A DNA stretch of 42,268 nucleotides from an uncultured Desulfuromonadales bacterium (GCA_903929485.1 CAIYUY010000257.1:1-42268), one strand, 5' to 3'. Counted from the stretch's first letter, positions 1 to 30,977 are shown. Translations and numbers: made by a program. Notes: a model not told the origin generated them from the sequence alone.

Positions 1-12
1 ACTGAACTCAAA

Positions 13-103
13 GGCATAGCGTAAGACTCAGTGGAAGAGCGGAGGGCGCGGAAAACATCACCGCGTTTCTCGTGTCGCGCGGTTCGATCCCGGCCGCTAT
101 GCC
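13..103 (+). ncRNA. tRNA-like element 1, noncanonical
   Basis: The ends GGCATAGCG and CGCTATGCC form a perfect 9-bp acceptor-like stem. A D-arm-like segment (CTC/GAG stem, loop AGTGGAA) and a TTCGATC T-loop with only about 3 good T-stem pairs are present. The centre is a long hairpin (CGCGG/CCGCG, 9-nt loop) rather than a normal 7-nt anticodon loop, and no CCA follows directly. It lies opposite to the phage genes, just past the 3' end of the methyltransferase. It shares its layout with element 2 at 1003-1089. It may be a divergent phage tRNA, an allo-tRNA-like molecule, a decoy or a decayed tRNA; no amino-acid identity can be assigned. Confidence 0.5.
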
Positions 104-145
104 TTCACCATTCCCCACCGAGCAACCGATATCTTTTCCCCGGCT

Positions 146-970
146 TTATTTCTCTTCAATCCTCTTGCAGGCAATCTCGAAATTACCGGGATCAAGCTCC
201 ATCCCGATAAACCGCCGTCCCGTCCGCAAACAAGCCACCCCCGTCGTCCCCGACCCGGAGAAAGGGTCAAGGACCGTTTCTCCTTCAACAACTATTTTAC
301 ACAGCGTCTCCATGATCCCCACCGGCTTCTGGGTGGAATGTTGCCGCTTTGCGTTGTACGGAGGACACTCCGACAAAACACCGGGGTGATAGGTTGCGCC
401 CTCTCGCGTGAAATCACGGGGCCCATTGCTGGCCCATGGGGCAAACTCACACTGTGCCCGAAACCGGTTAGGCATGGGGCGAGCGTTGATCTTGTCCCAG
501 GGTACGATTCCCCGCCATACCCACCCCGCAACCTGTAGCGCATCCGTTGCCGTGGGCAGCTGCCGCCAGTCGGAAAACGTTATGGCAACCCCGCCGGGTT
601 TCGTGACGTACAGAGCAAGACTTAACCACATCCGCGCCCACTCCAGATATGACCGTTGGTCCAAATTGTCGCCGGAAAAACTGGCATGCTCAGTAATAAG
701 TTTGCCGGAAGACTGGTATTTGCTCCGAGTTGACCCGGTTCTATCCCCGCGCATCATGCCGCCGGAACTATACGGCGGGTCAGTAATCACCGCATCAATA
801 GAACCTTTGGGCAGGGTCGGAATGATATCCAGACAATTCCCCCGATACATCACCGCCTGGCCTCCGGCTAATACTCGCTTTTCAAACACGTCGTCTCTCC
901 TGTCAAATGACCGCCCCTGGGAACGGGTAGGGCTATGAATGATGAATTTTTCACTTTTTTCAAGCGACAT
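146..970 (-). CDS. DNA methyltransferase, N4/N6 type
   Basis: A 274-aa SAM-dependent DNA methylase of the N-4 cytosine/N-6 adenine class. The catalytic motif DPPY lies near residue 65, after DAVIT. The SAM-binding motif DPFSGSGTTG is near the C-terminus, followed by RRFIGMELD. DPPY before FSGSG is the beta-type order. Mu-like phages often carry a DNA modification gene, typically against host restriction; here it sits between MuF and the missing head genes. The first ATG is used, although an internal Met near residue 41 is also possible because the methylase fold begins there. The target sequence cannot be read from the protein. Tightly flanked on both sides by tRNA-like elements on the other strand. 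Confidence 0.9.
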   Translation of the reverse strand: MSLEKSEKFIIHSPTRSQGRSFDRRDDVFEKRVLAGGQAVMYRGNCLDIIPTLPKGSIDAVITDPPYSSGGMMRGDRTGSTRSKYQSSGKLITEHASFSGDNLDQRSYLEWARMWLSLALYVTKPGGVAITFSDWRQLPTATDALQVAGWVWRGIVPWDKINARPMPNRFRAQCEFAPWASNGPRDFTREGATYHPGVLSECPPYNAKRQHSTQKPVGIMETLCKIVVEGETVLDPFSGSGTTGVACLRTGRRFIGMELDPGNFEIACKRIEEK

Positions 971-1002
971 TTTTAAACCTATATGATAGAATTAACTTGA
1001 TA

Positions 1003-1089
1003 GGAGCCGTATAAACTCAATGGTAGAGTGGAGTGCCGGGCTTTTCGGTTCGGCGGTCATGTTCCCGGTTCGATTCCGGGTGCGGTTCC
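1003..1089 (+). ncRNA. tRNA-like element 2, noncanonical
   Basis: The 9-nt ends GGAGCCGTA/TGCGGTTCC pair with two G-U wobbles. After TA comes a clean 4-bp D-arm (ACTC/GAGT, loop AATGGTA). A perfect 5-bp T-arm (CCCGG-TTCGATT-CCGGG) sits beside the acceptor strand. In the anticodon position, 1035-1054 forms a hairpin with a short UUUUCG loop, so there is no standard anticodon loop. No CCA is encoded. The 14 nt between T-loop and 3' end equal those in element 1 and exceed the 12 nt of a normal tRNA. The element overlaps the 3' end of the MuF gene on the opposite strand and begins 33 bp upstream of the methyltransferase start. Confidence 0.55.
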
Positions 1090-2520
1090 TTCTATTTTTC
1101 CCGTTAATACTTTATACCTTCCCCCATTAATCCCGCTGATATAATCCGAATCTGGAAGAATAGCCGCTGTTTTTATCTCATTGCTGACAAATCCTGTTTT
1201 TTTGTTTAGCACATTTACGCGTATGGCCCATTTCCCGGAGCTACCTTCTATGGGCACATCAAATATATACAGTAGCGACGGCTTGATGGTGTCATAAAGC
1301 ACTGCTGTGCTCTCCCTCAAGTGCTTGGGCAACTTCAGAGCCATATCCAAGGGAATAATTCGTTCCGCATCTCGACCTTTACCTGTAGCCAAATCCTTCA
1401 AGTGTAGCGAATGCAGAAACTCTTTATCTGTAATGGTGATCAGCGTCGTATCCAGGAGCACCGGATTTTTCAATTTAGCCAGTTTTACTTGCACTTCCGA
1501 ATCAATAAAACCGACGTTAAACTGTTCCCCTATGGTCTTTATCTCACCTGATTCCGTAGTGCCGGCCATCTTTGCCTTGGCCCACTGGGTAAATTCAGCG
1601 TCAATCTTTACGGCTGCTATCTCTTTGGAGAGCGGAGCGGATAGTACTGTAGGCAATGCTCCCACCCCCGCCAACTCCTTCCTCGCCGCCGGTCGAATTT
1701 CCGCCGGCATCGCCTTGACCTTCTCCCGGCCCAACTCCTGCAGCTTCGCCAGCCCCTTCCCCGGATTGGAGTTGAACCCAGGATCAGGCGCCATGTTCAC
1801 CTTCCGCCCCATCAGATCCGTGGTATTCACCCGCGTCACCGTCGTCCGGACGGGCGACCGCACCCCAACGGTCACCTCTTCACTGGTCAACGTCGCCGAC
1901 GGATTCTTCCCCACCGTGGAGCGCCGCGCCGCCGGTTCCGCCTGATCCTCCGCCAAGGCCCGCACCGTGCAGCGGCAGTTATACCCCTGGGGAGGATGGT
2001 GCGTCTCCCAGAAGGGATCATCAGCGTGAAAAATCAACCCGTTCAGCGCCGCGTGGGCCGGTCGCGTCCGCCGATCCATCACCGCCACATACTCCCACCA
2101 GGGGCGATTAGCCGCGTTCTCCCGATTCTGCTTGTAATCCCCCGCCATGTAGGCCGCTTGCAGATTCGTCTGATAGATCGTCTTTAAGCGCCGGGGAGAG
2201 CCCAACTGTACATCATGCAGCTCCCCCGTGGAGGGGTCCATGCTTTCCTTCCGTCCCCACCACCCCTTGGCCTGCAACGTCGGCTTCAACTCCTTCAAAA
2301 ACTCCCCAAACGGCTTCCCCTCACTCTGGGCCGCCACCAGCGCCCCATGAATATCCGCCAGGATATCGTTGCGCATGACCTTGGCCACGGTGAACTCCTT
2401 GGCGTGGGCCTCGTTCAGCATCTCCGTATAATCCCAGGTCAGGCGCGCCCCCTTGCTCACCAGGTAAGCAATCGCCTCCTCCGGTTTCAGCCCGAAGGCA
2501 TAGGTCAGGTCAACTTTCAC
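1057..2520 (-). CDS. Mu F-like head morphogenesis protein with PBECR-like C-terminal domain
   Basis: 487 aa, Mu gp30 (protein F) family, a minor head protein. The MuF core is visible at about residues 110-195, with TNLQAAYMAGDYKQ, RTRPAHAALNG and HPPQGYNCRC. After a linker, residues about 300-475 resemble the phage Barnase-EndoU-ColicinE5/D-RelE-like (PBECR) nuclease fold: ITDKEFLHSLHLKD, then a strand-rich end with KWAIRVNVLNKK and INGGRYKVL. MuF proteins with C-terminal toxin domains are known from other phages; nuclease activity here is inferred from resemblance. The start is a GTG supplied by a heptamer repeat. The last residues (GTAPGIEPGT) are encoded by the T-arm and acceptor of tRNA-like element 2, so the 3' end may have been altered. 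Confidence 0.85.
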   Translation of the reverse strand: MKVDLTYAFGLKPEEAIAYLVSKGARLTWDYTEMLNEAHAKEFTVAKVMRNDILADIHGALVAAQSEGKPFGEFLKELKPTLQAKGWWGRKESMDPSTGELHDVQLGSPRRLKTIYQTNLQAAYMAGDYKQNRENAANRPWWEYVAVMDRRTRPAHAALNGLIFHADDPFWETHHPPQGYNCRCTVRALAEDQAEPAARRSTVGKNPSATLTSEEVTVGVRSPVRTTVTRVNTTDLMGRKVNMAPDPGFNSNPGKGLAKLQELGREKVKAMPAEIRPAARKELAGVGALPTVLSAPLSKEIAAVKIDAEFTQWAKAKMAGTTESGEIKTIGEQFNVGFIDSEVQVKLAKLKNPVLLDTTLITITDKEFLHSLHLKDLATGKGRDAERIIPLDMALKLPKHLRESTAVLYDTIKPSLLYIFDVPIEGSSGKWAIRVNVLNKKTGFVSNEIKTAAILPDSDYISGINGGRYKVLTGKIEGTAPGIEPGT

Positions 2521-2544
2521 TCTTCACCCTTCACCCTTCACTCT
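2518..2544. repeat. TTCACCC heptamer array
   Basis: Tandem CTTCACC-type heptamers at the portal/MuF junction. On the minus strand they supply the TGA stop of the portal gene and the GTG start of the MuF gene. Confidence 0.85.
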
Positions 2545-4168
2545 TGCTTTTCATCCTGCCGCGAATCTCCGCCAGAAATATCATCCGCTCCAGGTTCCGC
2601 TCCAGGGCCGCGTCGGTCATGGTGGGGAAGGTCTGCAACAGCAGCTCCTGCGCCTCGGCGTAATCAACCGCCCCTTCAAGAGCGGTTAACACCGGCTTTA
2701 ACAATGTTTCCATCTGTTTCTGTAGGGGCGAATAACCATTCGCCCCCACGGTCGTCATGGAATTCATCAGGTTGTCGATATCCTGTTGCGCCTGTTGAAC
2801 GTTCACCGTTGACCGTTTACCGGTATCTTCCGCGAACTCCGCCGCCTGTTCCTTGATGGTCTGGGCCTGACCGGGCGATTCACGTACGGGCGATTCACGT
2901 ACGGGCGATTCATGAATCGCCCCTACGTTTTTCCCGCTCGCCGCTCCCCGCTCCCCGCTCTCCGCTCCCACCGAAACGATATCCCCTTCCTCGAACCCGT
3001 ACGCCCGCTGCAGATAGGCCGCCGAAAAGGAAACTCCGCAGTTGCGGGACAACTCCCCATCCCGCTGGGCCAGGGTCAAATCCACCAGCTCTTTCGAAAA
3101 CATCCGGAACCGAGGCCGCTCTCCTTCGCCGAAATTCAACTGATAAATCCAGTCAATCAGCTGATTCAGCGTCTGCTCCACCAATTTGCGGTCACTGTCG
3201 ATGATATCCTGCCGCACCGCCAGGGCGGCCGTCTCGCTCCCCAGCTTCCCCGGCGTCGATTCGGCGGCCCCCGCATGCCCCACCAACACTTCCGAGATCT
3301 CGCTCTTGGCTTCCTGAATCATCCCCCGGTAAAAGTCCGCGTTAGCCGCCTTGTTGGCCGCCTCCACCACCTCCAGGGAAGCATTATCCGGGATCACCGC
3401 TATGGCGTCCTGCACCATCCCTTCCAACATATCGGCTATCCGGCTGATCTCTCCCTGTTCCGCTCCCGGCGCATGCTTGCCGATGAGCCACGGCATGCCG
3501 TACTTCTCCGCGAAGATCGTCCAGAACTTCCATCCCCCCCGGGCGAAGGCCACCGGCCAGAAACAGCGGGATAACAGCGCCTCACCGTAGGGATTACGAT
3601 ACGTGGGGTAATTACGCGCCAACAGGAACTTGCGCGGGATCACCTCCTCGCCGTTGATCCAGTTCCACTTCGTCCGCAACCTCAACTCGTTCTGTTGCGG
3701 CCCGAAGGTAAACCACTCCTGGGGCTTACCCACCACGTCGGTGGGGAGGATAAAGCCGTTGCTCCCCTTGGCCCAGATCACCTCCAACGGTTGAAAGCCG
3801 TACAACACCGCGTCCAGGATCTCGGCAAAAATCCGCTCCAGATCCAGCCGGTTGAACAACGCCTCAATCTCCCGGTACTCCCGATTTCGACACTTCCCCC
3901 TCTCCAGCTCCCACTCCAGGGACATGACTCCGCTTTTCCGGCTGGTGATCCCCGACCAGACCCGGCCGTAACTGGTCAGATCCCGATACACCCGCAGATC
4001 AGCCCCGGTTTTTTTCAGCACCGGGTCGGGATTGGGTAAATACAGATTCAGGGAATAGAAATCGATGGATACTTTACGGGTGGCGAATTCGCTGGTCAGG
4101 TTCTGTTTCGGCTTCATCCCGCCGATACCGGGGATCATGAGCCCAGGTGTTGCTGCACTGTCGGACAT
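2531..4168 (-). CDS. Mu gp29-like portal protein (DUF935)
   Basis: About 545 aa, DUF935 family, the portal through which DNA enters and leaves the transposable-phage head. Recognisable stretches include KTGADLRVYRDL, the central ILDAVLYGFQPLEVIW and GYDVEEAGE-like C-terminal helices. The ATG at 4166-4168 overlaps the terminase TGA by one base and has GGAGG seven bases upstream. This is preferred over a TTG one codon earlier. Two repeat-derived inserts are visible in frame: HESPVRESPVRESP (from 2871-2927) and VGANGYSPLQ (from 2722-2750), both in the C-terminal third where insertion is probably tolerated. The TGA stop lies in a heptamer repeat. Confidence 0.9.
   Translation of the reverse strand: MSDSAATPGLMIPGIGGMKPKQNLTSEFATRKVSIDFYSLNLYLPNPDPVLKKTGADLRVYRDLTSYGRVWSGITSRKSGVMSLEWELERGKCRNREYREIEALFNRLDLERIFAEILDAVLYGFQPLEVIWAKGSNGFILPTDVVGKPQEWFTFGPQQNELRLRTKWNWINGEEVIPRKFLLARNYPTYRNPYGEALLSRCFWPVAFARGGWKFWTIFAEKYGMPWLIGKHAPGAEQGEISRIADMLEGMVQDAIAVIPDNASLEVVEAANKAANADFYRGMIQEAKSEISEVLVGHAGAAESTPGKLGSETAALAVRQDIIDSDRKLVEQTLNQLIDWIYQLNFGEGERPRFRMFSKELVDLTLAQRDGELSRNCGVSFSAAYLQRAYGFEEGDIVSVGAESGERGAASGKNVGAIHESPVRESPVRESPGQAQTIKEQAAEFAEDTGKRSTVNVQQAQQDIDNLMNSMTTVGANGYSPLQKQMETLLKPVLTALEGAVDYAEAQELLLQTFPTMTDAALERNLERMIFLAEIRGRMKSKSEG
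2722..2750. repeat. 29-bp palindromic repeat, AATAACCATT centre
   Basis: GTAGGGGCG arm, degenerate centre, CGCCCCCACG arm. Read in frame in the portal gene as VGANGYSPL. Confidence 0.85.
2871..2927. repeat. Nested palindromic repeats: two half copies and one full copy
   Basis: Two GGGCGATTCACGTAC half units precede a full ATTCATGAAT-centred palindrome at 2899-2927. All are translated in frame in the portal protein. The pattern suggests repeat-into-repeat insertion or slippage. Confidence 0.85.
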
Positions 4169-5481
4169 CAATAACCCTCCAAGAAAGCCGCGGCCTCTCG
4201 ACGGCCGCGACTGGTAACGGTGAGTGGCGTAAAGGCGGTAGCCGCCGCATACAGCCCCATGAAAGCCGCCCAGGTCCGGTCGGCATGCCCCGTGCTGTCG
4301 CTGTCGGCGTCAAACCGGGCGTTCCCCAGAGGGGTCACCACCTTCTTCAACTTGTGCAGATCCGCCCGCAATACATCATCGCCCAACGGAATCCGTACCT
4401 TGCGGTCTTCAAACTTCTCCTTGCCGATGGTGGCCAGCCGCAACTTGTTGGGGCCGGTGAAGAGCACCCCCTCCACCGTCGTCGAACCATACCGCCGAAT
4501 GGCGTCCTCCACCGGCTTTTCCCCCATTCCGGTCTGATCCATGCAGAGCCTAAGCGGCCGGTACTTCTTCATCAGCTGGTCAAGAATTTCATCCTGCTCC
4601 GCGAAACTGATTCTCTTTTTGGCGATGATCTCTCGCGCCCAGAAAACATCCCCTATTTTCTCCCAAACCCACGCCACCCAGAGGTCGTTACGCGCCGCGA
4701 TATCGTTGCCGATGTAGCAGGGTCCACCCTGGTAGCCGTCAGGATCACCGGCCCCGTCATGCTCGGCGGCGTTGATGAGATCAAAAGAGAGCCAGGCGGA
4801 CGCTTCATCCAGCCATTTCAGCTCGAACTCTTGCGCCCAGGCGTCATCATCCCCCAGCGCCCGCTTCAGTTCCTCGATGTTACGCGGCAAACCATCGGCC
4901 ACCGCTTGATAAATATCGGTAGTTTGGCGAAACCAGACCGGATCATCCCCCGTCATGAGATCGTAAAACTTGTTCCCCTTGCCGTTGGGAGTGGAAACCA
5001 CCCGCAGCTTCCACCCCTTGGAGATGACCGGGAAGAGCGCCGTCCAGATCTTGCGGCTGTCGGCATGAAACGCGAACTCGTCCAGCATGACGTTGGCGGA
5101 AAAGCCCCGGGCCGTATCCGGATTGGCGGGAAGCGCCGTGATCTTGGAGCCGTGGGGAAACTCCACTTCCAGGGCGCGAAAGGTGGCCTCTCCCTTCCAA
5201 TCGCCTTCACTGGCCTTGATCACGGCACCAAATGCCTGACAGTGCCGCTTGACCCCTTCCTCCATGGCTTCCTTGGCCTGCCGCTCTCCCCGTGAGAGAA
5301 TGACCCATCGGGTTCGCCTCTCTTCCAGGTCGGCCAGGATGCAGTCTTGAGCCACTTCCAGAGTGGTGGTATACGTCTTGCCTATCTGACGGCTCATCAT
5401 GGCGATCTTGAACCGCGATTCATCCGCCAGCCATCGGCGTTGATACGGATACAGGAGGAAGTCAGGCTCCATAGGTTTCAC
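4168..5481 (-). CDS. Mu gp28-like large terminase subunit
   Basis: 437 aa. The N-terminal ATPase has a Walker A-like SRQIGKTYT at about residues 30-38 and Walker B VMLDEF at 131-136. The C-terminal RNase H-like nuclease region includes GNDIAARNDLW and LRLCMDQTG. It drives headful DNA packaging in Mu-like phages. The reading frame starts at a GTG (5481); an ATG three codons in (5472) is equally plausible and still overlaps the gp27-like gene. The end overlaps the portal gene by one base, so translation is probably coupled. Confidence 0.93.
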   Translation of the reverse strand: MKPMEPDFLLYPYQRRWLADESRFKIAMMSRQIGKTYTTTLEVAQDCILADLEERRTRWVILSRGERQAKEAMEEGVKRHCQAFGAVIKASEGDWKGEATFRALEVEFPHGSKITALPANPDTARGFSANVMLDEFAFHADSRKIWTALFPVISKGWKLRVVSTPNGKGNKFYDLMTGDDPVWFRQTTDIYQAVADGLPRNIEELKRALGDDDAWAQEFELKWLDEASAWLSFDLINAAEHDGAGDPDGYQGGPCYIGNDIAARNDLWVAWVWEKIGDVFWAREIIAKKRISFAEQDEILDQLMKKYRPLRLCMDQTGMGEKPVEDAIRRYGSTTVEGVLFTGPNKLRLATIGKEKFEDRKVRIPLGDDVLRADLHKLKKVVTPLGNARFDADSDSTGHADRTWAAFMGLYAAATAFTPLTVTSRGRREAAAFLEGY

Positions 5482-10806: not shown

Positions 10807-11276
10807 GCCTTTTGCTTCTCTCGCCAACCACTTCTTCAACGCCTCGATAATCACCGTTTTATCCGCCGTTGAACACCACTGCAACGCGCTATTCCGAATC
10901 ATCCGGAACACATACGCGCCCAACGCCTTCTCGCTGGGATCACGTACCTTCCCCGCCTCATGCAGCTCGATCCACAAGCCCCGAATCATCTTGCTCATGG
11001 CGTCATCGGCCAGGGGGCGCGAGGGCGTATGTCGTACGGGCGACGCATGCGTCGCCCCTACTTCACCCTTCCCCCTTCACCCTTGCCTTTCCACACGCCC
11101 GCCGCCGTCGCCTTGGCGGTCAAATCCTCCGTCAACTTGCCGGCGGTAAAGGCGGTTAACTCCTTGGATGACGTTACCTTGTACCCGGAAAGGATAGCCC
11201 GATACGTATCATCGTCCAGTTGCAACGCCCCTTTCAGCGTATGAATCATCTTGATCTGCCAGGGCTGTATTTTCAT
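10792..11276 (-). pseudogene. gemA: gemA-like regulator (Mu gp16), split by repeats
   Basis: Two pieces of one DUF1018/GemA-type protein. The 5' piece (11058-11276) starts MKIQPWQIKMIHTLKGAL and contains LDDDTYRAILSGYKVTSSKELT. It ends at a TAG in the palindromic repeat at 11034-11061. The 3' piece has an ATG at 10998, but its frame extends upstream as RPLADDAMSKMIRGLW. It continues WIELHEAGKVRDPSEKALGA and ends IIEALKKWLAREAKG, the typical GemA C-terminal half. Heptamers plus palindrome lie exactly at the join and shift the frame. The halves could still be made separately (10792-10998 and 11058-11276). GemA in Mu modulates host gene expression and gyrase. Confidence 0.8.
11034..11086. repeat. 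Palindromic repeat (GACGCATGCGTC centre) with heptamers
   Basis: The palindrome at 11034-11061 is followed by TTCACCCTTCCCCCTTCACCC. It separates the two gemA halves. Confidence 0.88.
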
Positions 11277-11644
11277 CTCCGCTCCTCTAATACCCGTGCG
11301 CACGCCCCCACCGCTTCCACCCCGCACAACGTCGTGTCATGGTTGTGCGGATAATACGCCCCACACCCCTGGCACGGGTTTCGCGTTGTCAATTGTCCCT
11401 TGTCCATTGTCAACTGATACTCAAACCACCGCTCCCCGCTGATTTCCGACCGGACGTGGCGCGATTCGATCAACTTCCCGTTGGCCCGCAGTTCCGAGAC
11501 GGAAGTCCCCACCGCGTAGTTGTGGCAACGGTGGGAGAGCTCCGCCGTGGAATGCCACTTTCCATCGGAAAGCGCCCCCAACAGTTTCTTAAGTCGGGGC
11601 GAGTTATCCAGCCGCGCATGATGCATGATGCCGTTTCGTGCCAT
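11273..11644 (-). CDS. Winged-helix/zinc phage protein
   Basis: 123 aa from the ATG at 11642-11644 (AAGGAAGG upstream). The first half resembles a winged helix: RLKKLLGALSDGKWHSTAEL then GTSVSELRANGKLIESR and a wing GERWFEYQL. The second half has CQGCGAYYPHNH and LCGVEAVGACARV, possible zinc ligands. Similar small DNA-binding proteins occur near gemA in Mu-like phages. Its end overlaps the gemA start by 4 bp. Confidence 0.7.
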   Translation of the reverse strand: MARNGIMHHARLDNSPRLKKLLGALSDGKWHSTAELSHRCHNYAVGTSVSELRANGKLIESRHVRSEISGERWFEYQLTMDKGQLTTRNPCQGCGAYYPHNHDTTLCGVEAVGACARVLEERR

Positions 11645-11739
11645 GTCCCTTCCTTCTTGGCTGCTCATCAGACCCGAAGCGCCACCCCCGGATGACGATC
11701 ATATTGCCGACGTCGGCAATGTGATCGTTTCACATGCCC

Positions 11740-15768: not shown

Positions 15769-15797
15769 GTACGGGCGATTCATGAATCGCCCCTACA
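15769..15797. repeat. Palindromic repeat, ATTCATGAAT centre
   Basis: Contains the TAG stop (15793-15795) of the transposase gene. Confidence 0.9.
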
Positions 15798-18006
15798 TCA
15801 CCGCCGCCTGCACCCTCTCCGGGTCCTTCTCACACCACGGATCATCCCGATACAACCCGAACCGTTTACCCCGGTCCGTCATGGCGTAATGACTCGCCCA
15901 TTGGCACTCATACGCCGTCGCTTCCCCTGCTTTTTGCCGCTCCAGGATCTCGTCATACAGTTGATGCTGATTGTCTCTAAGCTCCTGCTCCAACCGTGGC
16001 GCCGCATCCTTGGCCCGCTTCAACTCGATGACCTTAGCCATCGTGGCAATCGTCTCCGGCTCCAGCTCGTAGGGCGCCGGAGCCGCCTGAATCCGTTCCG
16101 GCCCGTGCATCTCCAGCCGGATCTCCTCCGCCTGCATCTCCAGCCGGTTCAACCGGGCCACGCCCCGCTGCTCCAGCTTCTCCTCGATATGCGACTTCAC
16201 GAAGTATTCGGAAGCGTTGCCGTCCAGCTTGGCCACGGCCAGTAATCGCTGATCTTCCATGCTCCGAACCCAAACCTTGCTGGGGTCGCTGGGCGAGAAC
16301 GAGACAAACACCTTCTGCTTGTTGAACTCGGTCAGATCGGCGCTGTAATACCGCTTTACATAGCCGTTGCGCTTCGTTCCCATCTGGATTTCGCCCCGCT
16401 GCACCGTCCGGATGATCTTGGGATGGTACAGGTCGGGCAATTCGTTGGCCGGTTGCAGCCATTGATTCTCCGGCCGTGTCCGTTTCATCTGCTCCATCCC
16501 CATGTCCCACGCCTGATTGGGGGTCAAATGGGTTCTCTTTTGCGTCTGTGGATCCCGCACCGCCGGTAAACCCTTGTGCGGCGTGTTGTTGTACCGCTCC
16601 ATGGCCCTGTTGATCCCCGCCACACCATCGTCGAATTCGATCAACAACCGCACGCTGAGCGAAGTCGAAGCGCCGTTTTCTTTGTCTTTCACCTCGCGCC
16701 TGGTCTTCTTGTAGACCAGTTTCTTCGTATCCTCGTCCATATCCGCCCCGATATAGGTGCAGAGCTCCTTGGCGGCGCGGATCAGTATCGTCTGGTGCGC
16801 CCGTTCGCTCACCCCGTGGGCCTTGGGATTACGCGGTCGGGAATATTCGGGATGAATTCCCAGCCAATGGAGCATCCCGGTCCCAGCCTCCGTCATCATC
16901 TGGTTCTTGAACCCGCTGCCGTTGTCGGTGTAGAAGATCGCCGGCGGGCCGAACGTCTCACAGGCCATCCGGAGGGCATCCAGCACCGCCAGACCGCTTT
17001 CCGCCAGGTCGATACTCCACCCCACAACCTTCCGGCTAAAAACATCGATAACCGGGGTAATCTCGGGCCGAAACGGCTTCCCATGGAACGGGTGCGCCCA
17101 TTCCGCGTCGTTGCAATGGCCATCCGCCGTGTAGCAGTCCCCAGGGAGCATCTCCTCCGTCGTCCGGCGGCGGTGAGGCTTGATATTGGCAATGGCATTC
17201 CCCGTCATCCGCCCCTTTTCCCGCTCCACCGTCCCCAACGTCTTCAGATAGCCCGTTGCCTGGTAATAGGTCGGCATGGGGACCCCGGCGGGAAGCTTGG
17301 TTTTCAGATTCTCCAACACATCCGTCAGCGGCAGGTTCTGTCCCTTGCGCCAGCATGCCAGAAAGGAGGGTACCCAGAGGGCCAACGGCTTCACGGGGAG
17401 CGCCTTGGGCGCCAGATTCATGGGGTTTTGCCCCTTCTCGGAGAGTATCCACCATGCCATCACGCCGCTCTCCGAAAGGGTTCTCTCCTTACCGGCTCGG
17501 GCGTTTGCCTGAGCAATACTGGCCTGAATTTCTGGCGGAGCCGTTCCGTTTGACGCCTCTTTAACGAGCTGTTTAATGGCCTTTGTTATCCCGATCGCTG
17601 GTTCCAAGTTCTGCAGGTAGCGAATGAGTGCTAACCGGGCGTACATCGGTATCCGTCGCCACTCCGGCAGCTGCTCCGGCGTCTCCGCTGCCTTCTCGGC
17701 AATGACCGTGGGCAGTAAAGGCTCACTCTCCCCTGGGGAGAGGCTTGCGCTGAGCGAAGTCGAAGCGGCGAGGGGTGAGGGGGAAACCGTCACCGCCGCT
17801 ATTTCCCGATTCAGCAGGTACTCTTGCGTCACCGTCGGCAGCGACCGCCAGAAGTACTCCTTCCCGCCACCCTTGCCTTCCCGTTTCCGCTCTTCCCAGG
17901 GGATGGCCTTGGCCTGATCATGGTCAGCCTTGCGTTGTACTGACCTTTCAGTCCCCGGCAAACCCGGCAGTCCGGCGGCCTCCTTGGCGCTGTACCATTC
18001 TTTCAT
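15793..18006 (-). CDS. Mu-type transposase A (DDE)
   Basis: 737 aa. The N-terminal Mu-type DNA-binding domain starts EWYSAKEAAGLPGLP. The DDE catalytic core has D295 (YTADGHC), D361 (FYTDNGSGFKN) and E401 (KAHGVSERAH). The C-terminal beta-barrel and B-interaction regions follow. It catalyses strand transfer for integration and replicative transposition. Two repeat-derived peptides are inserted in frame: STSLSASLS near residue 82-90, between DNA-binding modules, and GASTSLSVRLL near 445-455, after the catalytic Glu. The stop TAG is inside a palindromic repeat. The core residues are intact, so it may still be active. Confidence 0.95.
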   Translation of the reverse strand: MKEWYSAKEAAGLPGLPGTERSVQRKADHDQAKAIPWEERKREGKGGGKEYFWRSLPTVTQEYLLNREIAAVTVSPSPLAASTSLSASLSPGESEPLLPTVIAEKAAETPEQLPEWRRIPMYARLALIRYLQNLEPAIGITKAIKQLVKEASNGTAPPEIQASIAQANARAGKERTLSESGVMAWWILSEKGQNPMNLAPKALPVKPLALWVPSFLACWRKGQNLPLTDVLENLKTKLPAGVPMPTYYQATGYLKTLGTVEREKGRMTGNAIANIKPHRRRTTEEMLPGDCYTADGHCNDAEWAHPFHGKPFRPEITPVIDVFSRKVVGWSIDLAESGLAVLDALRMACETFGPPAIFYTDNGSGFKNQMMTEAGTGMLHWLGIHPEYSRPRNPKAHGVSERAHQTILIRAAKELCTYIGADMDEDTKKLVYKKTRREVKDKENGASTSLSVRLLIEFDDGVAGINRAMERYNNTPHKGLPAVRDPQTQKRTHLTPNQAWDMGMEQMKRTRPENQWLQPANELPDLYHPKIIRTVQRGEIQMGTKRNGYVKRYYSADLTEFNKQKVFVSFSPSDPSKVWVRSMEDQRLLAVAKLDGNASEYFVKSHIEEKLEQRGVARLNRLEMQAEEIRLEMHGPERIQAAPAPYELEPETIATMAKVIELKRAKDAAPRLEQELRDNQHQLYDEILERQKAGEATAYECQWASHYAMTDRGKRFGLYRDDPWCEKDPERVQAAVM
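16654..16673. repeat. GCTGAGCGAAGTCGAAGC element inside the transposase gene
   Basis: In-frame copy coding for STSLSV after the catalytic core. Confidence 0.85.
17725..17790. repeat. Composite repeat inside the transposase gene
   Basis: CTCTCCCCTGGGGAGAGG-like hairpin material flanks a GCTGAGCGAAGTCGAAGC copy at about 17748-17767. Translated as a Ser/Pro-rich stretch near residues 75-96. Confidence 0.78.
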
Positions 18007-22633: not shown

Positions 22634-25600
22634 TCAAAACCACCCATTCTCACTCCGCTGCCAGATGAAGTTATAGACCTTCCGAGCGGCCTGGCTTTTG
22701 TCGTCGGAGGTAAAGGGTGGATCGGGGAGGTTCCTGTGTAGTTCATCCAGGATGAAAACCTCAACCTCCGCCTGGGTCTGCTCCTTCCGGGTCCACTGCT
22801 CCAGCGGCGCCAGGAGCTCCTGCAAGGATTTCAGTAATCCCCGACTTCCGACTTTCAACCGTTCCCGGTCGCTCTTGCTCAGGTCGTCACGGTGCAGCAG
22901 GCAGAAGAGGGCATATTCCTCTTCGCTTAATCCCTCTTCGGCGGCCCGCCGTTGTTCCGCGTCGAGACTCGCGGCAAGGTCGGCCAGCCGGGAAAAAGTC
23001 TCCTCCATGCTCACCCGATCCTTTTCCCGGTTGTAATCCGCGATGATCTCCTGGTATCGCTTGTAGTAATCCATCCGCTGGGAATTCTGCCTCAACATCA
23101 GGACCAGCTTCCGCTCCACGATCTCCCGGATGTCCTGGATGGCGGTGGCCTTGCGTCGTATCTTCTTGGCAAACTCCTGTTGCAATTTTTCCAGATCAAG
23201 GGCGCTCAGGTCGTAGAGTTTGCTCTCAGTCGGTGGTTCGGCCACTGTAGAGTGGGCATTGATCGCCTCGTTGACGATCCGGTGCAGCTCCTTGAGGAGT
23301 TCCGCCACGTCAGCCGTATCGCGCCGCTCGGAGAGCTTCTTGTAGATCGCCTCGATGTTGTCATGGCGTTCGGCGTAGAGGTGAGCTGACGGCTCCATCA
23401 GCAGCCCCTTGAAGCGGATGAAGATCTGTCGGGCCATGATCTCGAAGCGCCTCTTGCTTTCGTCGGAGGTGTAGACCGCATCCACGGCATCGGCCAGCGC
23501 CTGGATACGGATAAAGCCCTTGCTGCCGATCATCTCTTCGGCATGAAAGCCGAGGCTGACCAGGTGCTGTTCCGTCGCCTCGATGGCCGCCAGCAGCGCC
23601 TTCACCACCCGCTCTTCCACCGGGGCGACGATCTCTTCTCCGCCGGCGCCGTCATCACCAAGGGCATACGTCGCCAGCGCCTCCCGCAGGCTCTTGAGCA
23701 TGCCATTGTAGTCGACGATGAGGCCGAAATCCTTGCCGGGGTAGCGCCGGTTGGCGCGGGCGATGGCCTGCATGAGGGTGTGTGCCTTCATCGGCTTGTC
23801 GATGTAGAGGGTTGAGAGGCACTCCACGTCGAAGCCGGTGAGCCACATGGCGCAGACGATGGCGACCCGGAAGGGGTGTTCCGGATTCTTGAAGGCCGAT
23901 TCCACGTCCACCCGCTTGCCGTCGGCGGTCTCGAACCCCTGCTTCATGATGGTCCGGTGGGGGATGATGTCGATCCCCCACTTCTTGAAGTCGGCCACCT
24001 CGTTCTGGGCCTCGCTGATAATGATCTCGATGATGGTGCTTTCCAGCCACGCCGCCTGTGCCGCGAGCTTGTTCCGCTCGTCCGTCAGCATTTTACGGGT
24101 TTCGTGGTCACAGGGGATTTCTAGAGCCGCCTCGCGGGCGAGGATTTCTTTCCTGATCGCCGCCAGCTTCGACTTCCACTTGGGCATGATGAGTTTATGC
24201 ATCCGGGCGCAGGTGACCTTGTCCACGCAGACCAGCATGGGCTTACCCGATTCCCAGCGGGTGGTGGCGTGTTCCACGAAATCGGCGGCGATCTTTGCCA
24301 GTCGGTCGTCGGCGGTGATCACCTCGTAATCCTTCCCCAGCAGTTTTTCCAGTAAGGCTTCCTGATCCGGGTCCAGCTCGACTCTGGCGATGGCGTCGGC
24401 GATCCGGTCATTCAGGTCCAGCCGGGCAATACCCAGCTTCTCCCCCCGGTTCTCATAGACCAGCTTCACCGTCGCGCCATCCTGCTCGGAACGTTTAAAG
24501 TCGTAGCAAGAGACGTAACTGCCGAAGATCCGCCGGGTCAGATTGTCGTTTTTAAAGAGCGGAGTGCCCGTAAAGCCGATGAAGGACGCGTTGGGAAGGG
24601 CCAGCCGCATGTTTCGCGCCAGCCTGCCTGCCTGGGTGCGGTGGGCTTCGTCGGAGATGACGACGATATCATCCCGGCGGCTGTACGGTTCTTCGTGGTT
24701 TATCTCCTGATTGAACTTGTGGATCAGGCTGAAGATGTAGCGATGGTTCTGCTTGAGAAGCTGCTCCAGCTCCTTGCCGGAACTTGCCCGAGGTGTCTGC
24801 TCGTTGACCACGCCGCAGCCGACAAAGGTTCGGTAAATTTGGCTATCCAGGTCATTGCGGTCAGTCATGAGGACGAAAGTAAAGTTCCCCGGCACCAGTC
24901 GCCGGACCTTTTCGGTGAAGAAGGCCATGGAGTAGGACTTGCCGCTCCCTTGGGTATGCCAGAAAACGCCCAGTCTCCCCAGGTCGGGATGGGCCGCTTC
25001 CGGCAGCATGAGGGTGCGCGGCTCTGCATTCAACTCTCCCATGCCCCGCGCCAACATTTCCTCCCCTTCACGCCTGTCCTGAGCGTGGTCCCCGAGCGGA
25101 GTCGAGGGGAAGTCGAAGGAGGGAGGGTCAGGGAGGGGATGGGGTTGTTCCTTGTCCGTCATCTGTTCGGGAGGGAGCTCGACCAGCCGATAGGTAACCC
25201 GCTGCTCCGGCGGGAACCGGAGTTTCAACTCTTCCTGGCGCACCACCGCTGCTACCGCGTTATTGACTCCCAGGACCTGATGGTTGCGGGCCACCACCTT
25301 GCGAATCGATCCCGGCTTGCCGGCATCGAACAGGATGAAGTTCTCGATGATATCCAGCAACCGTTCATGACCCAGCATCCCGTTGAGGAGCACCTCCGCC
25401 TCCACGCTTCCCGACTCCCGTTCCTCCAGTCGTTTCCACTGAGCGAAATGCTCCCAGGAGCTGGTGATGGAACCGTAGCGCGCCCGGTGACCGTTGCTGA
25501 CGATGAGGAAGGCGTTGTGATGGAAGGCATGGGCGATGACCTGCTCGTCCAGGTAATCCTTCAGGTTCCCCTCGAACCCGGCCCGGATATTTCGGTAGAC

Positions 25601-26128
25601 CGCTTTCAGTTCGATGAAAACCAGGGGGAGGCCGTTGACGAAACAGACCAGATCGGCCCGGCGGTTGTAGTGGGGACTCCGGAGCCCGGTGATCTTCAGC
25701 TCTCGCACCGCCTGGAAGCGGTTGTTGGGCACCCCGTTGGTGGAACCGTTGCTGAAGTCGATAACTTTCGCCTGGGCATGACGCAGGGTCCCGCTGGCCT
25801 CGCGGTAACTCACCGGGACACCGTCACGGATCATCTTGAAGAATGCTTGATTCTGTTGGATGAGGGACCGGGTGAAATCGTGGTGGGAAAGTTTGGTGAC
25901 CGCCTCATGGACAGCGGTGGGGGGAAGCTGGGGGTTCAGTTGCGCCACTGCCCGGCTTAGTTCGCGCTTGAGGACGACATCACGGGTATCGGTTCGCCCC
26001 AGCAGGCTGTCCGGGCCGAAGTCCTCCTGATTCCAGGCATAGACACTTTCCAATCCCAGCGCCTGCTCCAGGTGTTCGGCAAAGGTAGTTTGTACCAGCC
26101 GGTCTTCACTGTTGATGTCGGTGATCAT
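22634..26128 (-). CDS. hsdR: Type I restriction enzyme R subunit
   Basis: 1164 aa motor and nuclease subunit. N-terminal nuclease motif: D159 with E173-x-K175 (RADLVCF, FIELKA). Superfamily 2 helicase: Walker A TQGSGKS near residue 393, DEAH (VVISDEAH), motif III FTGTP, and later motif VI QAIARANRR. The C-terminal helical domain contacts the methylase. ATP-driven translocation is followed by cleavage of unmethylated DNA. Residues about 325-358 (FDFPSTPLGDHAQDRREGEE) come from repeat DNA and form a Pro/acid-rich insert before the motor. Last gene of the operon. Confidence 0.96.
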   Translation of the reverse strand: MITDINSEDRLVQTTFAEHLEQALGLESVYAWNQEDFGPDSLLGRTDTRDVVLKRELSRAVAQLNPQLPPTAVHEAVTKLSHHDFTRSLIQQNQAFFKMIRDGVPVSYREASGTLRHAQAKVIDFSNGSTNGVPNNRFQAVRELKITGLRSPHYNRRADLVCFVNGLPLVFIELKAVYRNIRAGFEGNLKDYLDEQVIAHAFHHNAFLIVSNGHRARYGSITSSWEHFAQWKRLEERESGSVEAEVLLNGMLGHERLLDIIENFILFDAGKPGSIRKVVARNHQVLGVNNAVAAVVRQEELKLRFPPEQRVTYRLVELPPEQMTDKEQPHPLPDPPSFDFPSTPLGDHAQDRREGEEMLARGMGELNAEPRTLMLPEAAHPDLGRLGVFWHTQGSGKSYSMAFFTEKVRRLVPGNFTFVLMTDRNDLDSQIYRTFVGCGVVNEQTPRASSGKELEQLLKQNHRYIFSLIHKFNQEINHEEPYSRRDDIVVISDEAHRTQAGRLARNMRLALPNASFIGFTGTPLFKNDNLTRRIFGSYVSCYDFKRSEQDGATVKLVYENRGEKLGIARLDLNDRIADAIARVELDPDQEALLEKLLGKDYEVITADDRLAKIAADFVEHATTRWESGKPMLVCVDKVTCARMHKLIMPKWKSKLAAIRKEILAREAALEIPCDHETRKMLTDERNKLAAQAAWLESTIIEIIISEAQNEVADFKKWGIDIIPHRTIMKQGFETADGKRVDVESAFKNPEHPFRVAIVCAMWLTGFDVECLSTLYIDKPMKAHTLMQAIARANRRYPGKDFGLIVDYNGMLKSLREALATYALGDDGAGGEEIVAPVEERVVKALLAAIEATEQHLVSLGFHAEEMIGSKGFIRIQALADAVDAVYTSDESKRRFEIMARQIFIRFKGLLMEPSAHLYAERHDNIEAIYKKLSERRDTADVAELLKELHRIVNEAINAHSTVAEPPTESKLYDLSALDLEKLQQEFAKKIRRKATAIQDIREIVERKLVLMLRQNSQRMDYYKRYQEIIADYNREKDRVSMEETFSRLADLAASLDAEQRRAAEEGLSEEEYALFCLLHRDDLSKSDRERLKVGSRGLLKSLQELLAPLEQWTRKEQTQAEVEVFILDELHRNLPDPPFTSDDKSQAARKVYNFIWQRSENGWF
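25074..25122. repeat. Composite CTGAGC..GTCGAAG repeat inside hsdR
   Basis: CCTGAGCGTGGTCCCCGAGC and GGAGTCGAGGGGAAGTCGAA, an extended variant of the family, translated in frame between nuclease and helicase domains. Confidence 0.75.
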
Positions 26129-26168
26129 GGTCGCCTTATTTGGGAAATGTTAGGGGAAATTCCGCGGC

Positions 26169-26921
26169 TCATATATGTTTGGTCCCTTTGCATTCCGGGT
26201 AACCGGAGCACCCCAGAAATTGCGCCCCTGCGTTTTTCCCCTGCTTTGCCGTGCGGAGCACCATGAGCTTGCCGCATAACGGGCAATTGGGAAAAGCTCC
26301 AGTGTCAGCCCGATCCGACCGATGATCACTTTTTCGCTCTTGCAGCCGTGCTGCCGCCAGTTGTTCGCTGTAGCCGCCTTCGTGGATGAAGTTCTGCTCA
26401 AGAGCTCGAATGAGCTGGTCGAGCAGGTAGTTTGTCTGGTGGATCAGGCAGATGAGCGTATTGGCGACGATGGCAGGGTCGGGGTTTTGCAGCCAGGCGG
26501 CGTAAGCGTCGCGATCGGTCTGATCGGGCTGATCAGAGTGATCTGACCGATCAGTTAGCCCCTTCCCCACACCCCTTACCGCTATTGCCTCGGGGGCGTC
26601 TTTGGCCCATTGTCGCTTGCCATGCTGCCGAATGTAGTCTTCGTAATCCAGCAGCAGTTCGTCCAGACTGGCGCGGGCGACATTGACCAGCCGCAGCTCG
26701 GTCTGGCTGGAGGTGGCCGAGGCCCGACTCCCCTCGGCGATATTCTGCCGTCCGCTCCGGGCGGCTTGCACCATCTGGTCAACCAGGCGTGAGTGCTTGT
26801 CTATGAACCGTTCGCAGAACGACACCGTGGCGTCATAGATCAGCGTTGAGGTTCGGAACGAGCGGAGCGTTCGATAGCCGCCGCTGGGGCGCAGCTTCTT
26901 GTAACCGGCGGGCTCACTCAT
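26169..26921 (-). CDS. Four-helix-bundle protein with C-terminal zinc ribbon
   Basis: 250 aa. The N-terminal part resembles the four-helix-bundle (23S rRNA intervening-sequence, S23) family: LVDQMVQAARSGRQNIAEGS and ARASLDELLLDYEDYI. The C-terminus is a topoisomerase-type zinc ribbon: CPLCGKLMVLRTAKQG ... FLGCSGYPECKGT. Proteins of this four-helix-bundle-suffix kind are found inside some type I restriction operons; their role is unknown. It overlaps hsdS by 4 bp (ATGA). The linker contains GATCAGACCGATC-type microrepeats (LTDRSDHSDQPDQTDRD). Confidence 0.82.
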   Translation of the reverse strand: MSEPAGYKKLRPSGGYRTLRSFRTSTLIYDATVSFCERFIDKHSRLVDQMVQAARSGRQNIAEGSRASATSSQTELRLVNVARASLDELLLDYEDYIRQHGKRQWAKDAPEAIAVRGVGKGLTDRSDHSDQPDQTDRDAYAAWLQNPDPAIVANTLICLIHQTNYLLDQLIRALEQNFIHEGGYSEQLAAARLQERKSDHRSDRADTGAFPNCPLCGKLMVLRTAKQGKNAGAQFLGCSGYPECKGTKHI

Positions 26922-28138
26922 ACGGCAATCTCCCCGCTCATCAGCTTCGGCAGCAGCAGGTCGCGGGCGGTGCGGAGTTTCTGGTTTTGCAACCGCAAAT
27001 TATGTGATTGTGCCATTTGCTGTTCCACAAATTCGTTGAAGGCTGAGACGAGAGGTTTTATCGGCACAGTTACGACAGCCCGTTCAAAATCGCCTGAGAC
27101 AACAGCCGGATAAGCTGCGCCCTTTGCGTGGTTTGACAGATAACCGACAAATGATTCTGTAGTTAGCGCTTGGTACAGGTAAGAAGTCGGTAGATATCGT
27201 GGAGTAATAACGGCAAATCCAGTTGACGCGACCAGGTTTTCTGGTGGGTTCCAAATTACGGCATGCGATCTCCGATTGGGCCGAACGCACGACCAGATAA
27301 TGTCTCCATGCTTGACGACACGGCGTGCTCTACTTGGGGCATCACGGAAAATATATATAGTCGTGTCATCAATTGAGCCCGGAGAAACAGAAGAAATATC
27401 AATATACTCAACATCTCCATCGTAACTGTTGCTGATATTGGTTTGGTTGATTTCGGCAACATCCCCCAGCTTCTTCCTTTCCCACCCCACCGGCACCCCG
27501 TCAACGATGCGGGTATGCTCATGGCCGGGGAAGCGGAGGCGAACGAACCACTCGTTGTACAGTTGCCGCGCCGTCTCCTCCAGCAGCACCATCCGTCGCC
27601 GGTTGTTTTCGATCAGGTCATCGTAGGCGGAGAGGGTGGAGGCGATTTTGTGCTGAGCCTTGATTGATGGAAAACGTACTGGTAATTTTGCGACAATACC
27701 AGCGCTGAGATTAAGCATTGTCGTTCCTACTGAGTTTTGGAGCAACCACTTTACAACATGGTCTTGTTCCATAAAATAGTAGAGATATTCTGGCGCAAGT
27801 TTTTTACCATCGAGCTCAATCTTGATACAGCCTGTTCCACAGATCCAACCTACTTGATCTTCCCTGATAAATGCTCTTTTTGTAATCTCTCCCCGACGCG
27901 GCAAAACAATTGTTCTTAATTTTATTTTGTGCCGCTCAAGCCGGTTCGCCATCTCCTCTGAAATATGTGCGATAGAATCGACTGATACTTGTCCATCAGC
28001 AATGTCTTTGGGCATAATTACTGGTATGCCTTCAGATTGATAATCAGCTTGATGGAGTTGTGCGCCAAATGGTCCGGTTTGAATTAACCCGCCATCTTGT
28101 TTAACTATTTCTCCAAGAGTTGAGTCCTGCCACTTCAT
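26918..28138 (-). CDS. hsdS: Type I restriction specificity subunit
   Basis: 406 aa with two target-recognition domains. The first (about 1-190) ends in the conserved LPVRFPSIKAQHKIASTL and helix AYDDLIENNRRRMVLLEETA. The second starts at GWERKKLGDVAEINQT and ends in a second helix EQQMAQSHNLRLQNQKLRTA then RDLLLPKLMSGEIAV, the classical C-terminal signature. It sets the bipartite DNA target for both methylation and cleavage. Overlaps genes on both sides by 4 bp. Confidence 0.95.
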   Translation of the reverse strand: MKWQDSTLGEIVKQDGGLIQTGPFGAQLHQADYQSEGIPVIMPKDIADGQVSVDSIAHISEEMANRLERHKIKLRTIVLPRRGEITKRAFIREDQVGWICGTGCIKIELDGKKLAPEYLYYFMEQDHVVKWLLQNSVGTTMLNLSAGIVAKLPVRFPSIKAQHKIASTLSAYDDLIENNRRRMVLLEETARQLYNEWFVRLRFPGHEHTRIVDGVPVGWERKKLGDVAEINQTNISNSYDGDVEYIDISSVSPGSIDDTTIYIFRDAPSRARRVVKHGDIIWSCVRPNRRSHAVIWNPPENLVASTGFAVITPRYLPTSYLYQALTTESFVGYLSNHAKGAAYPAVVSGDFERAVVTVPIKPLVSAFNEFVEQQMAQSHNLRLQNQKLRTARDLLLPKLMSGEIAV

Positions 28139-28482
28139 ACCTTCTCCTCAACATTCTCCTGAGTGCTATTTTTCCGTTCGCCCTGAGCTTGTCGAAGGGC
28201 ACATTTTGATTTCGCTAATCTGGAAACTTCTTCCCAGTCACCTCGCATCATTGCCTCTTTCTTTGCCCTGCTCCAGCTTTTTATCTGTTGTTCCGCAGCG
28301 AGCGCTTCTAATCTGGTATGAAATACCTCACAGTACACAAGCTGAACCGGGAGCCGTTTGTGCGTGTAGCAGGTAGCTATTGCTCCGCTGTGATGCTCCG
28401 CCAGACGTTTTTCGAGATTGTCAGTATGCCCGGTATAATAGCTCTTATCGGAACACCTGAGAATGTATACGTAAAAGTCCAT
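28135..28482 (-). CDS. GIY-YIG nuclease-fold protein
   Basis: 115 aa, URI-type GIY-YIG family: FYVYILRCSDKSYYTGHTDN, then LEKRLAEHHSGAIATCYT, with the basic VQLVYCEVFHTRLEALAAEQ following. Stand-alone members are common and often of unknown role; some act on damaged DNA. The C-terminus (ALRQAQGERKNS) is translated from a CTGAGC..GTCGAAG repeat, so the natural end may be shorter. It overlaps hsdS by 4 bp and so is transcribed with the restriction operon, perhaps as a late insertion. Confidence 0.85.
   Translation of the reverse strand: MDFYVYILRCSDKSYYTGHTDNLEKRLAEHHSGAIATCYTHKRLPVQLVYCEVFHTRLEALAAEQQIKSWSRAKKEAMMRGDWEEVSRLAKSKCALRQAQGERKNSTQENVEEKV
28179..28201. repeat. GCCCTGAGCTTGTCGAAGGGC element
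   Basis: Classic CTGAGC..GTCGAAG hairpin inside the 3' end of the GIY-YIG gene. Confidence 0.85.
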
Positions 28483-28790
28483 ATTGATCTAACCTTGCGG
28501 ATTTATTTGCCCTTCGACAAGCTCAGGGCGAACGGATGTGGGATTTGCAACGAATACATTTTCCGTTCATGGTGAGTTCTTCGACATGCCTGTTTTGAGC
28601 ATAGTCGAAGGGCTTAGGGCGAACGGAGCTAGGTGATTCGCTACCGCAATATAGTCGGCGTTAGTGTTCCGCTCATGGTTCGACAGGCTCACCACGAACG
28701 GAACACAAGCCAATTAATAGCCTGAATCCGTTCACCCTGAGCTTGTCGAAGGGTGCAATTTTACTATGCGGATTTAAGATGATGACGAGT
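28483..28790. repeat. Non-coding gap filled with CTGAGC..GTCGAAG hairpin repeats
   Basis: Copies near 28510-28535, 28590-28625, 28676-28700 and 28732-28755, often with CGAACGG on one side, separate hsdM from the GIY-YIG gene. No ORF or promoter supported. Confidence 0.8.
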
Positions 28791-30956: not shown

Positions 30957-30977
30957 GAGCAGCAGAGTCCTTTTCAT

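Follow-up and report, generated by a model that had tools for sequence, protein, structure and literature searches.

Comparative sequence evidence identifies two short elements, E1 and E2, as members of a family, not described before, of small RNAs that are shaped like tRNA and lack an anticodon. Both lie in the window, the whole stretch of 42,268 nucleotides analysed here from an uncultured Desulfuromonadales bacterium (GCA_903929485.1 CAIYUY010000257.1:1-42268). Confidence in the family, and in its linkage to the MuF-C domain of the phage head protein gpF, is judged to be high. The family and its module are new; the mechanism is a proposal, namely that the lysogen would make the RNA as an immunity factor against MuF-C or as a decoy that mimics tRNA, a reading to which we assign a probability of roughly 0.45.

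Two tRNA-like elements in a Mu-like prophage

The features concerned are listed below by their positions in the window.

1-3, plus strand: last three bases of a predicted extended -10 promoter element of E1 (TGcTATACT), from the promoter test on the L007 upstream sequence; the rest is off the contig
13-103, plus strand: E1, tRNA-like RNA of 91 nt (81-104 bits with covariance models R1, R2 and R3)
146-970, minus strand: N6/N4 DNA methyltransferase between E1 and E2 (PF01555, E=1.7e-27)
984-992, plus strand: predicted extended -10 promoter element of E2 (TGaTAGAAT, hexamer 987-992, p=0.008), 10 nt from E2
1003-1089, plus strand: E2, tRNA-like RNA of 87 nt (67-88 bits with the covariance models; folding z=-4.17)
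1057-2520, minus strand: gpF-like minor head protein (MuF), 487 aa, with N-terminal Phage_Mu_F domain (PF04233, E=1.5e-26)
1093-1650, minus strand: C-terminal MuF-C/PBECR-like domain of gpF, a predicted RNase (profile, homologues, alignment)
2531-4171, minus strand: Mu-like portal protein (PF06074, E=1.7e-85)
4168-5481: terminase of the Mu-like prophage
15793-18006: transposase of the Mu-like prophage

Read directly from the sequence, E1 is closed by a 9-bp acceptor stem at 13-21/95-103 (GGCATAGCG/CGCTATGCC), which is followed by TA, a D arm of CTC/GAG and, later, TTCGA. The acceptor of E2 pairs 1003-1011 with 1081-1089 (GGAGCCGTA/TGCGGTTCC, 9 bp including G-U pairs) and gives way to TA, a D arm of ACTC/GAGT and TTCGAT within a perfect 5-bp T arm. 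The initial annotation had described these parts at these positions, on the strand opposite to the late genes of the Mu-like prophage and on either side of the methyltransferase, and all of this is borne out. The layout that it had seen the two elements share holds as described and reaches further, to a canonical variable loop of five nucleotides (GTGTC in E1, ATGTT in E2) and to a conserved anticodon-arm base of 2 bp plus a 1x1 mismatch. ARAGORN reports E2 as 'tRNA-???' and makes no call for E1. The folding z-scores (-4.2 for E2, -1.9 for E1) are, taken alone, weak evidence of anything beyond chance.

The window corresponds to contig C257 in a genome assembled as 369 contigs and starts inside a 118-bp assembly overlap common to four contigs. 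E1 is identical on C17, C30, C101 and C257 within this overlap, which corresponds to two genomic copies of E1; a third element of the family, E3, occurs on contig C195. As the window begins at the contig edge, the E1 promoter falls outside it and was read from contig C17 (L007).

Members of the family

A covariance model built from E1-E3 (R1) matched an element in a genome of the same genus (G001, 57 bits) and another within the same order (G033, 61.5 bits). Model R2 led to G331 and G370, DNA patterns to the IMG/VR contigs L086, L091, L092 and L093, and model R3, built from 11 rows, to G607 and two copies in G645. There are 14 distinct members, three in the window's genome and the others in Desulfobacterota genomes and IMG/VR viral contigs, with the identical elements of L086 and L087 counted once. 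Further members score 57-103 bits, as compared with a maximum of 37 for canonical tRNAs. The covariance-model search that the initial annotation had proposed yielded more members, together with covariation in the acceptor.

The family is sparse: it was detected in 3 of 395 genomes in a sample of the phylum and in 5 of 277 in the class. No member was seen by blastn in 50,697 GenBank phage records, and the E1, G331 and G607 elements, used as blastn queries against GenBank phages and plasmids, returned short chance or tRNA matches only. When E1/E2, E3 and eight homologue loci were scanned with Rfam, no family fitted, and a literature search found no description of such an RNA. The earlier suggestion of a new phage small-RNA family is supported by the homologues, the compensatory changes, the conserved promoters and this lack of an Rfam counterpart.

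Two other tRNA-like RNAs, retrieved with an E2-like pattern (L094 4331-4412, minus strand; L095 2484-2565, plus strand), have abnormal anticodon arms with GCGACGG common to their loops and lie between late genes in phages of another type. As sense-strand elements in that setting, scoring 41-56 bits against an R3 tRNA background of up to 49.5, they were not counted as members. In phage G444, the L086 phage, a weak second tRNA-like match (L101 16013-16090, plus strand, 24-29 bits) is possibly a degraded or divergent element.

A tRNA core without an anticodon

Forced into the tRNA layout, the members follow a common plan. First come a 9-bp acceptor, U8-A9, a D arm whose loop has 7 nt, and one unpaired base (26). 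The rebuilt anticodon arm consists of 2 bp, a 1x1 mismatch and a variable, short-looped hairpin of ∼4-9 bp; the variable-loop position is taken by five RUGUC-like nucleotides, and a T arm with TTCGAYT follows. In E1, E3, G001, G645a and L092 the anticodon-arm base deviates and the remaining plan is kept. The canonical tertiary core of tRNA is present (U8-A9, D-loop GG, T loop TTCRA; alignment A8). Among the 11 aligned members the acceptor is paired in 98% of cells, with double-sided changes in eight of its nine pairs; across the whole 11-row alignment 94.3% of cells are paired and 12 pairs show double changes. The whole-structure covariation score is 0.559, against 0.189±0.028 for shuffled and at most 0.149 for slid alignments, and exceeds 500 of 500 shuffles and every slide; the alignment was fitted to the model and hence favours the model's structure, though the acceptor ends are fixed by position. 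The held-out element of G607, which was not among the training rows, takes the same fold plan.

In several members the T stem (helix 4) contains mismatches, 82% of its cells being paired, and this, together with the patchy distribution, is what might be expected of decayed tRNA genes or of a functionless selfish repeat derived from tRNA. Such an origin is very improbable given the covarying acceptor, the promoters in 11/11 upstream regions tested, the architecture retained by the held-out member and the fixed gene position. E1 and E2 had been judged too similar for two random decayed tRNAs, a view with which the covariance-model homologues and the covariation, beating all shuffles and slides, agree.

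The anticodon loops measure 3-9 nt and have no triplet common to the members; those of L092 (UUUUUAA) and G370 (UUUUCAG) are readable as 7-nt loops, ambiguously. CCA at the proper place is encoded in none of the 14 members, whereas 5/5 tRNA genes checked at host-type loci encode it. Canonical tRNA (RF00005) was rejected on the acceptor, 9 bp instead of 7 in the 11 aligned members, and on the lack of a 7-nt loop with U33 and a meaningful anticodon; none of the E1, E2, E3, G001, G033, G331, G370, L086 and L091 elements reaches the Rfam tRNA threshold. The best Rfam score is that of E2 with tRNA-Sec (RF01852), 24 bits against a gathering threshold of 47, and this class, which has a UCA anticodon, was likewise rejected: the D stem has 3-4 bp, not 6, and a 5-nt variable loop replaces the long arm. 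Allo-tRNAs have 8/4 or 9/3 stems, and some allo-tRNA-like pseudogenes are suspected of transposon or toxin-antitoxin links (PMC7609411, reviewing Mukai et al. 2017). The family resembles them in its lengthened acceptor and differs in its 9/5 stems, in place of a 12-bp acceptor/T domain, in a 5-nt variable loop where they have a long arm of Ser type, in the missing anticodon and in its genomic setting; allo-tRNA was rejected on the stems and the variable loop. The proposed 'allo-tRNA / tRNA-Sec-like class' is not supported, with stems of 9/5 rather than 8/4, 9/3 or 8/5, no consistent anticodon and the low tRNA-Sec score of E2. The tRNA core and the 7-nt readings in L092 and G370 would be accounted for by a working tRNA of unusual type (allo-tRNA or Sec-like), one that reads a codon or inserts an amino acid; in the face of the loop lengths, the mismatch in the anticodon stem, the absence of CCA, the 9/5 stems and the tRNA-Sec score, we consider it highly unlikely.

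Predicted promoters and the transcribed strand

A sigma70-like site precedes the RNA in 11 of 11 upstream regions tested, its -10 box ending 5-16 nt before the element; the individual p-value is below 0.05 in ten of them and 0.11 in G033. With an approximate sigma70 matrix, the same for test and control, the scores sum to 105, whereas 500 random trials averaged 22 and went no higher than 49, and the opposite strand behaves as random (19.9 versus 20.9). Wobble cells are biased in the same direction, with ten G-U against three A-C overall and six against one in the acceptor. Promoters and wobble bias together support the tRNA-like strand as the transcript.

The MuF-C domain of gpF

The gpF gene is located downstream of the Mu portal gene (PF06074), which is the position of MuF toxin genes. 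MuF proteins are head components and their C-terminal domains have been proposed as injected effectors (PMC5512222, PMC5576092). The C-terminal domain of the window's own gpF reaches no Pfam BECR model (MuF_C, PBECR3), its MuF-C profile match is by construction, and scans of viral contigs with it as single- and three-sequence query returned nothing. The L093 homologue matches PF18819 (MuF_C) with 28.6 bits, the cut-off being 27.6, and PBECR3 weakly, and the L092 homologue matches MuF_C at 8.5e-4. An AlphaFold2 model of the L091 domain (six-row alignment, pLDDT 82) retrieved MuF C-terminal and polyvalent 'nuclease' proteins from a viral fold library with probability 1.00; in the PDB its first match, the BrnT RNase toxin, was not significant (E=0.47).

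A conserved helix His and a Ser/Thr after a conserved Asn are kept in the MuF-C alignment, with the Thr of L093 one column off and the G645 remnant lacking the His part. These residues correspond to the active configuration, His plus Ser/Thr, reported for phage BECR domains, which are predicted RNases (Iyer et al. 2017, PMC5512222). The same authors suggested that these domains might spare host tRNA, a point against the immunity reading proposed below. Fold match and catalytic pattern thus resemble those of known MuF-C/PBECR domains (PF18819, PF18812); the differences are that none is described with an RNA partner (PMC5512222) and that the window's sequence lies below Pfam detection.

BECR domains bind RNA, and phage Mu's own MuF-C is predicted to act through RNA binding (PMC5512222). 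Both points would suit a cofactor, activator or packaged cargo, bound by the capsid MuF-C for folding, head assembly or target choice. That role is nonetheless improbable, as related phages carry MuF-C without the RNA, whose own opposite-strand promoter suggests expression apart from the late genes.

The RNA at the end of MuF-C genes

At nine loci (E2, G001, G033, G331, L091, L092, L093, G607 and G645) the RNA meets a convergent MuF-C gene, its 3' end lying at -33 to +9 nt relative to that gene's stop codon. The MuF-C proteins of these loci are as little as 18% identical to that of the window. L091-L093, G607 and G645 came to light through the RNA alone, G331 through protein profile and RNA model separately. 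Distances among the RNAs correlate with those among the MuF-C domains (Mantel r=0.43, p=0.026). In G033 a stand-alone MuF-C gene of 168 aa lies outside any phage, flanked by cellular genes, and again ends at the RNA; in G645 a C-terminal MuF-C remnant gene near a CRISPR array is bracketed by two RNAs. On this positional evidence the predicted MuF-C nuclease domain of gpF, which the initial annotation had missed, is the recurrent partner, and the methyltransferase is not the key partner. Seven of the nine genes are gpF of Mu-like phages, and part of the linkage is therefore shared synteny.

The association is not universal. A MuF-C gene is absent beside E1, E3, G370 and L086, and the proteins near E3 and L086 have no Pfam match. 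Related MuF-C domains without detectable RNA occur in phages B3 and JBD67, in a Pasteurella phage and at loci G440 and G096, which implies that the RNA is not obligatory for the domain. L078, a decayed prophage with a gpF fragment, has no RNA.

In the window the 3' half of E2 is antisense to the end of gpF, whose stop lies at 1057. The 33-nt overlap arises because the gpF frame ran on into E2, adding ∼11 residues that are read from the strand complementary to the T arm and acceptor. This overlap, the convergent position at gpF/gpG and the dedicated promoters would be consistent with an antisense regulator of the late operon, acting by pairing with gpF-gpG mRNA or by transcriptional interference, with the tRNA shape providing stability. 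Most linked loci, however, have no overlap with gpF (gap 0-9 nt), such a regulator would need neither covarying acceptor pairs nor invariant tRNA loop bases, and orphan copies are not at gpF; we regard it as unlikely, if somewhat less so than a cofactor. In L091, L092, L093, G331 and G607 the interval between gpF and gpG is filled by the RNA and leaves no room for a small immunity ORF after gpF.

The retained tertiary core (U8-A9, D-loop GG, TTCGAYT, 5-nt variable loop) and the orphan copies, some of them near defence loci (Wadjet-like on C101, CRISPR in G645 and G370), would also suit a general tRNA decoy or scavenger that distracts tRNA-acting host factors, such as defence nucleases or modification or processing enzymes, the adjacency to MuF-C reflecting phage gene order only. 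This is the least improbable of the alternatives, at about one chance in five; it leaves unexplained the exact abutment on MuF-C stop codons at nine loci and the stand-alone MuF-C gene with its RNA in G033.

The remnant RNA locus of G645 (L114 1-545 and 711-1213) and the solitary RNA of G370 (L081 1501-1589 and about 1805-1878) each lie ∼170-220 bp from a CRISPR array, that of G370 consisting of two repeats only, at the contig end. Perhaps they reside in defence islands.

The methyltransferase and other neighbouring genes

The methyltransferase stop lies 42 nt from E1, which faces it. Most RNA homologues have no methyltransferase, no RNA element was found beside 20 viral relatives of the enzyme, and a second genomic copy of the gene, on C101, has E1 and lacks E2. 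These results speak against the idea that the elements are ends of a mobile methyltransferase module, and the enzyme, whose relatives lack the RNA, is not a conserved partner of it. The C101 copy is mosaic (L009, G000 contig C101, 1-8407): its ends are 97-99% identical to the window, its middle is replaced, and it is followed by genes that, on sequence impression, are Wadjet/MksB-like, including a 1141-aa coiled-coil ATPase.

Elsewhere in the window, an RF02276 match (50.9 bits, gathering threshold 37) places a type II hammerhead ribozyme at 11655-11735 on the minus strand, in the prophage early region just upstream of an ORF at 11273-11668. Type I restriction-modification genes (22634-30977, minus strand; HsdR 22634-26128, HsdM 28791-30977) lie beside the prophage.

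A candidate RNA antidote to a predicted phage-borne nuclease

RNA family, fold, strand, promoters and exact convergent linkage to MuF-C are supported by the comparisons above; injection, RNase activity, binding, protection and lysogenic expression are inferred in the favoured immunity reading. According to this reading, gpF would travel in the phage head, and its C-terminal RNase would be delivered to the next host together with the DNA. Transcription of the RNA would start from its own sigma70-type promoter opposite the late operon; in this orientation the promoter is probably active in lysogens, so that the RNA could be made while the late operon is silent. A tRNA-shaped decoy might then bind or occupy the MuF-C RNase and shield the lysogen or producing cell, the RNA taking the slot of the immunity protein in polymorphic toxin systems, and copies away from MuF-C (E1, E3, G370 and L086) would be orphan immunity RNAs. 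The fuller version, in which an anticodon-less antidote counters a head-borne injected RNase and orphan genomic copies, some near defence loci, protect against such phages, is slightly more tentative still.

The closest likenesses are to a MuF polymorphic toxin and the immunity determinant that accompanies it, and to a type III toxin-antitoxin pair; the module departs from both in defining features. In type III systems an RNA of tandem pseudoknot repeats, encoded upstream of the toxin and co-transcribed with it, neutralizes an RNase. The module has in common with them a predicted RNase and an adjacent RNA that may be an inhibitor, and differs in that the RNA is a single tRNA-fold unit, convergent, downstream and with its own opposite promoter. 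YrlA, a bacterial Y RNA with a tRNA-like module, offers a parallel of tRNA mimicry by a non-decoding bacterial RNA; here, by contrast, the RNA begins and ends in the acceptor stem, as a tRNA does, and there is no Rfam match. MuF polymorphic toxins (PMC5576092) share with the module a MuF domain at the N-terminus, encoded just after the portal gene, a variable C-terminal domain, here of putative effector type, and a candidate immunity determinant immediately downstream. In 89% of MuF toxin genes, a small putative immunity ORF follows (Jamet et al. 2017, PMC5576092); here a convergent structured RNA is found downstream instead, and the C-terminus is MuF-C/PBECR.

Whichever mechanism holds, the RNA family and its linkage rest on sequence evidence, and a covarying RNA with a full tRNA core and no anticodon, set at the end of a phage head-protein gene for a predicted RNase, has no counterpart in Rfam or in the literature searched. 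The module offers a handle on a standing question, the role of MuF-C/PBECR domains in Mu-like head proteins and the survival of the lysogen, and suggests that polymorphic toxin systems can use an RNA instead of an immunity protein. If the proposal is true, it would represent a new kind of immunity: an RNA antidote to an RNase carried in the phage head.
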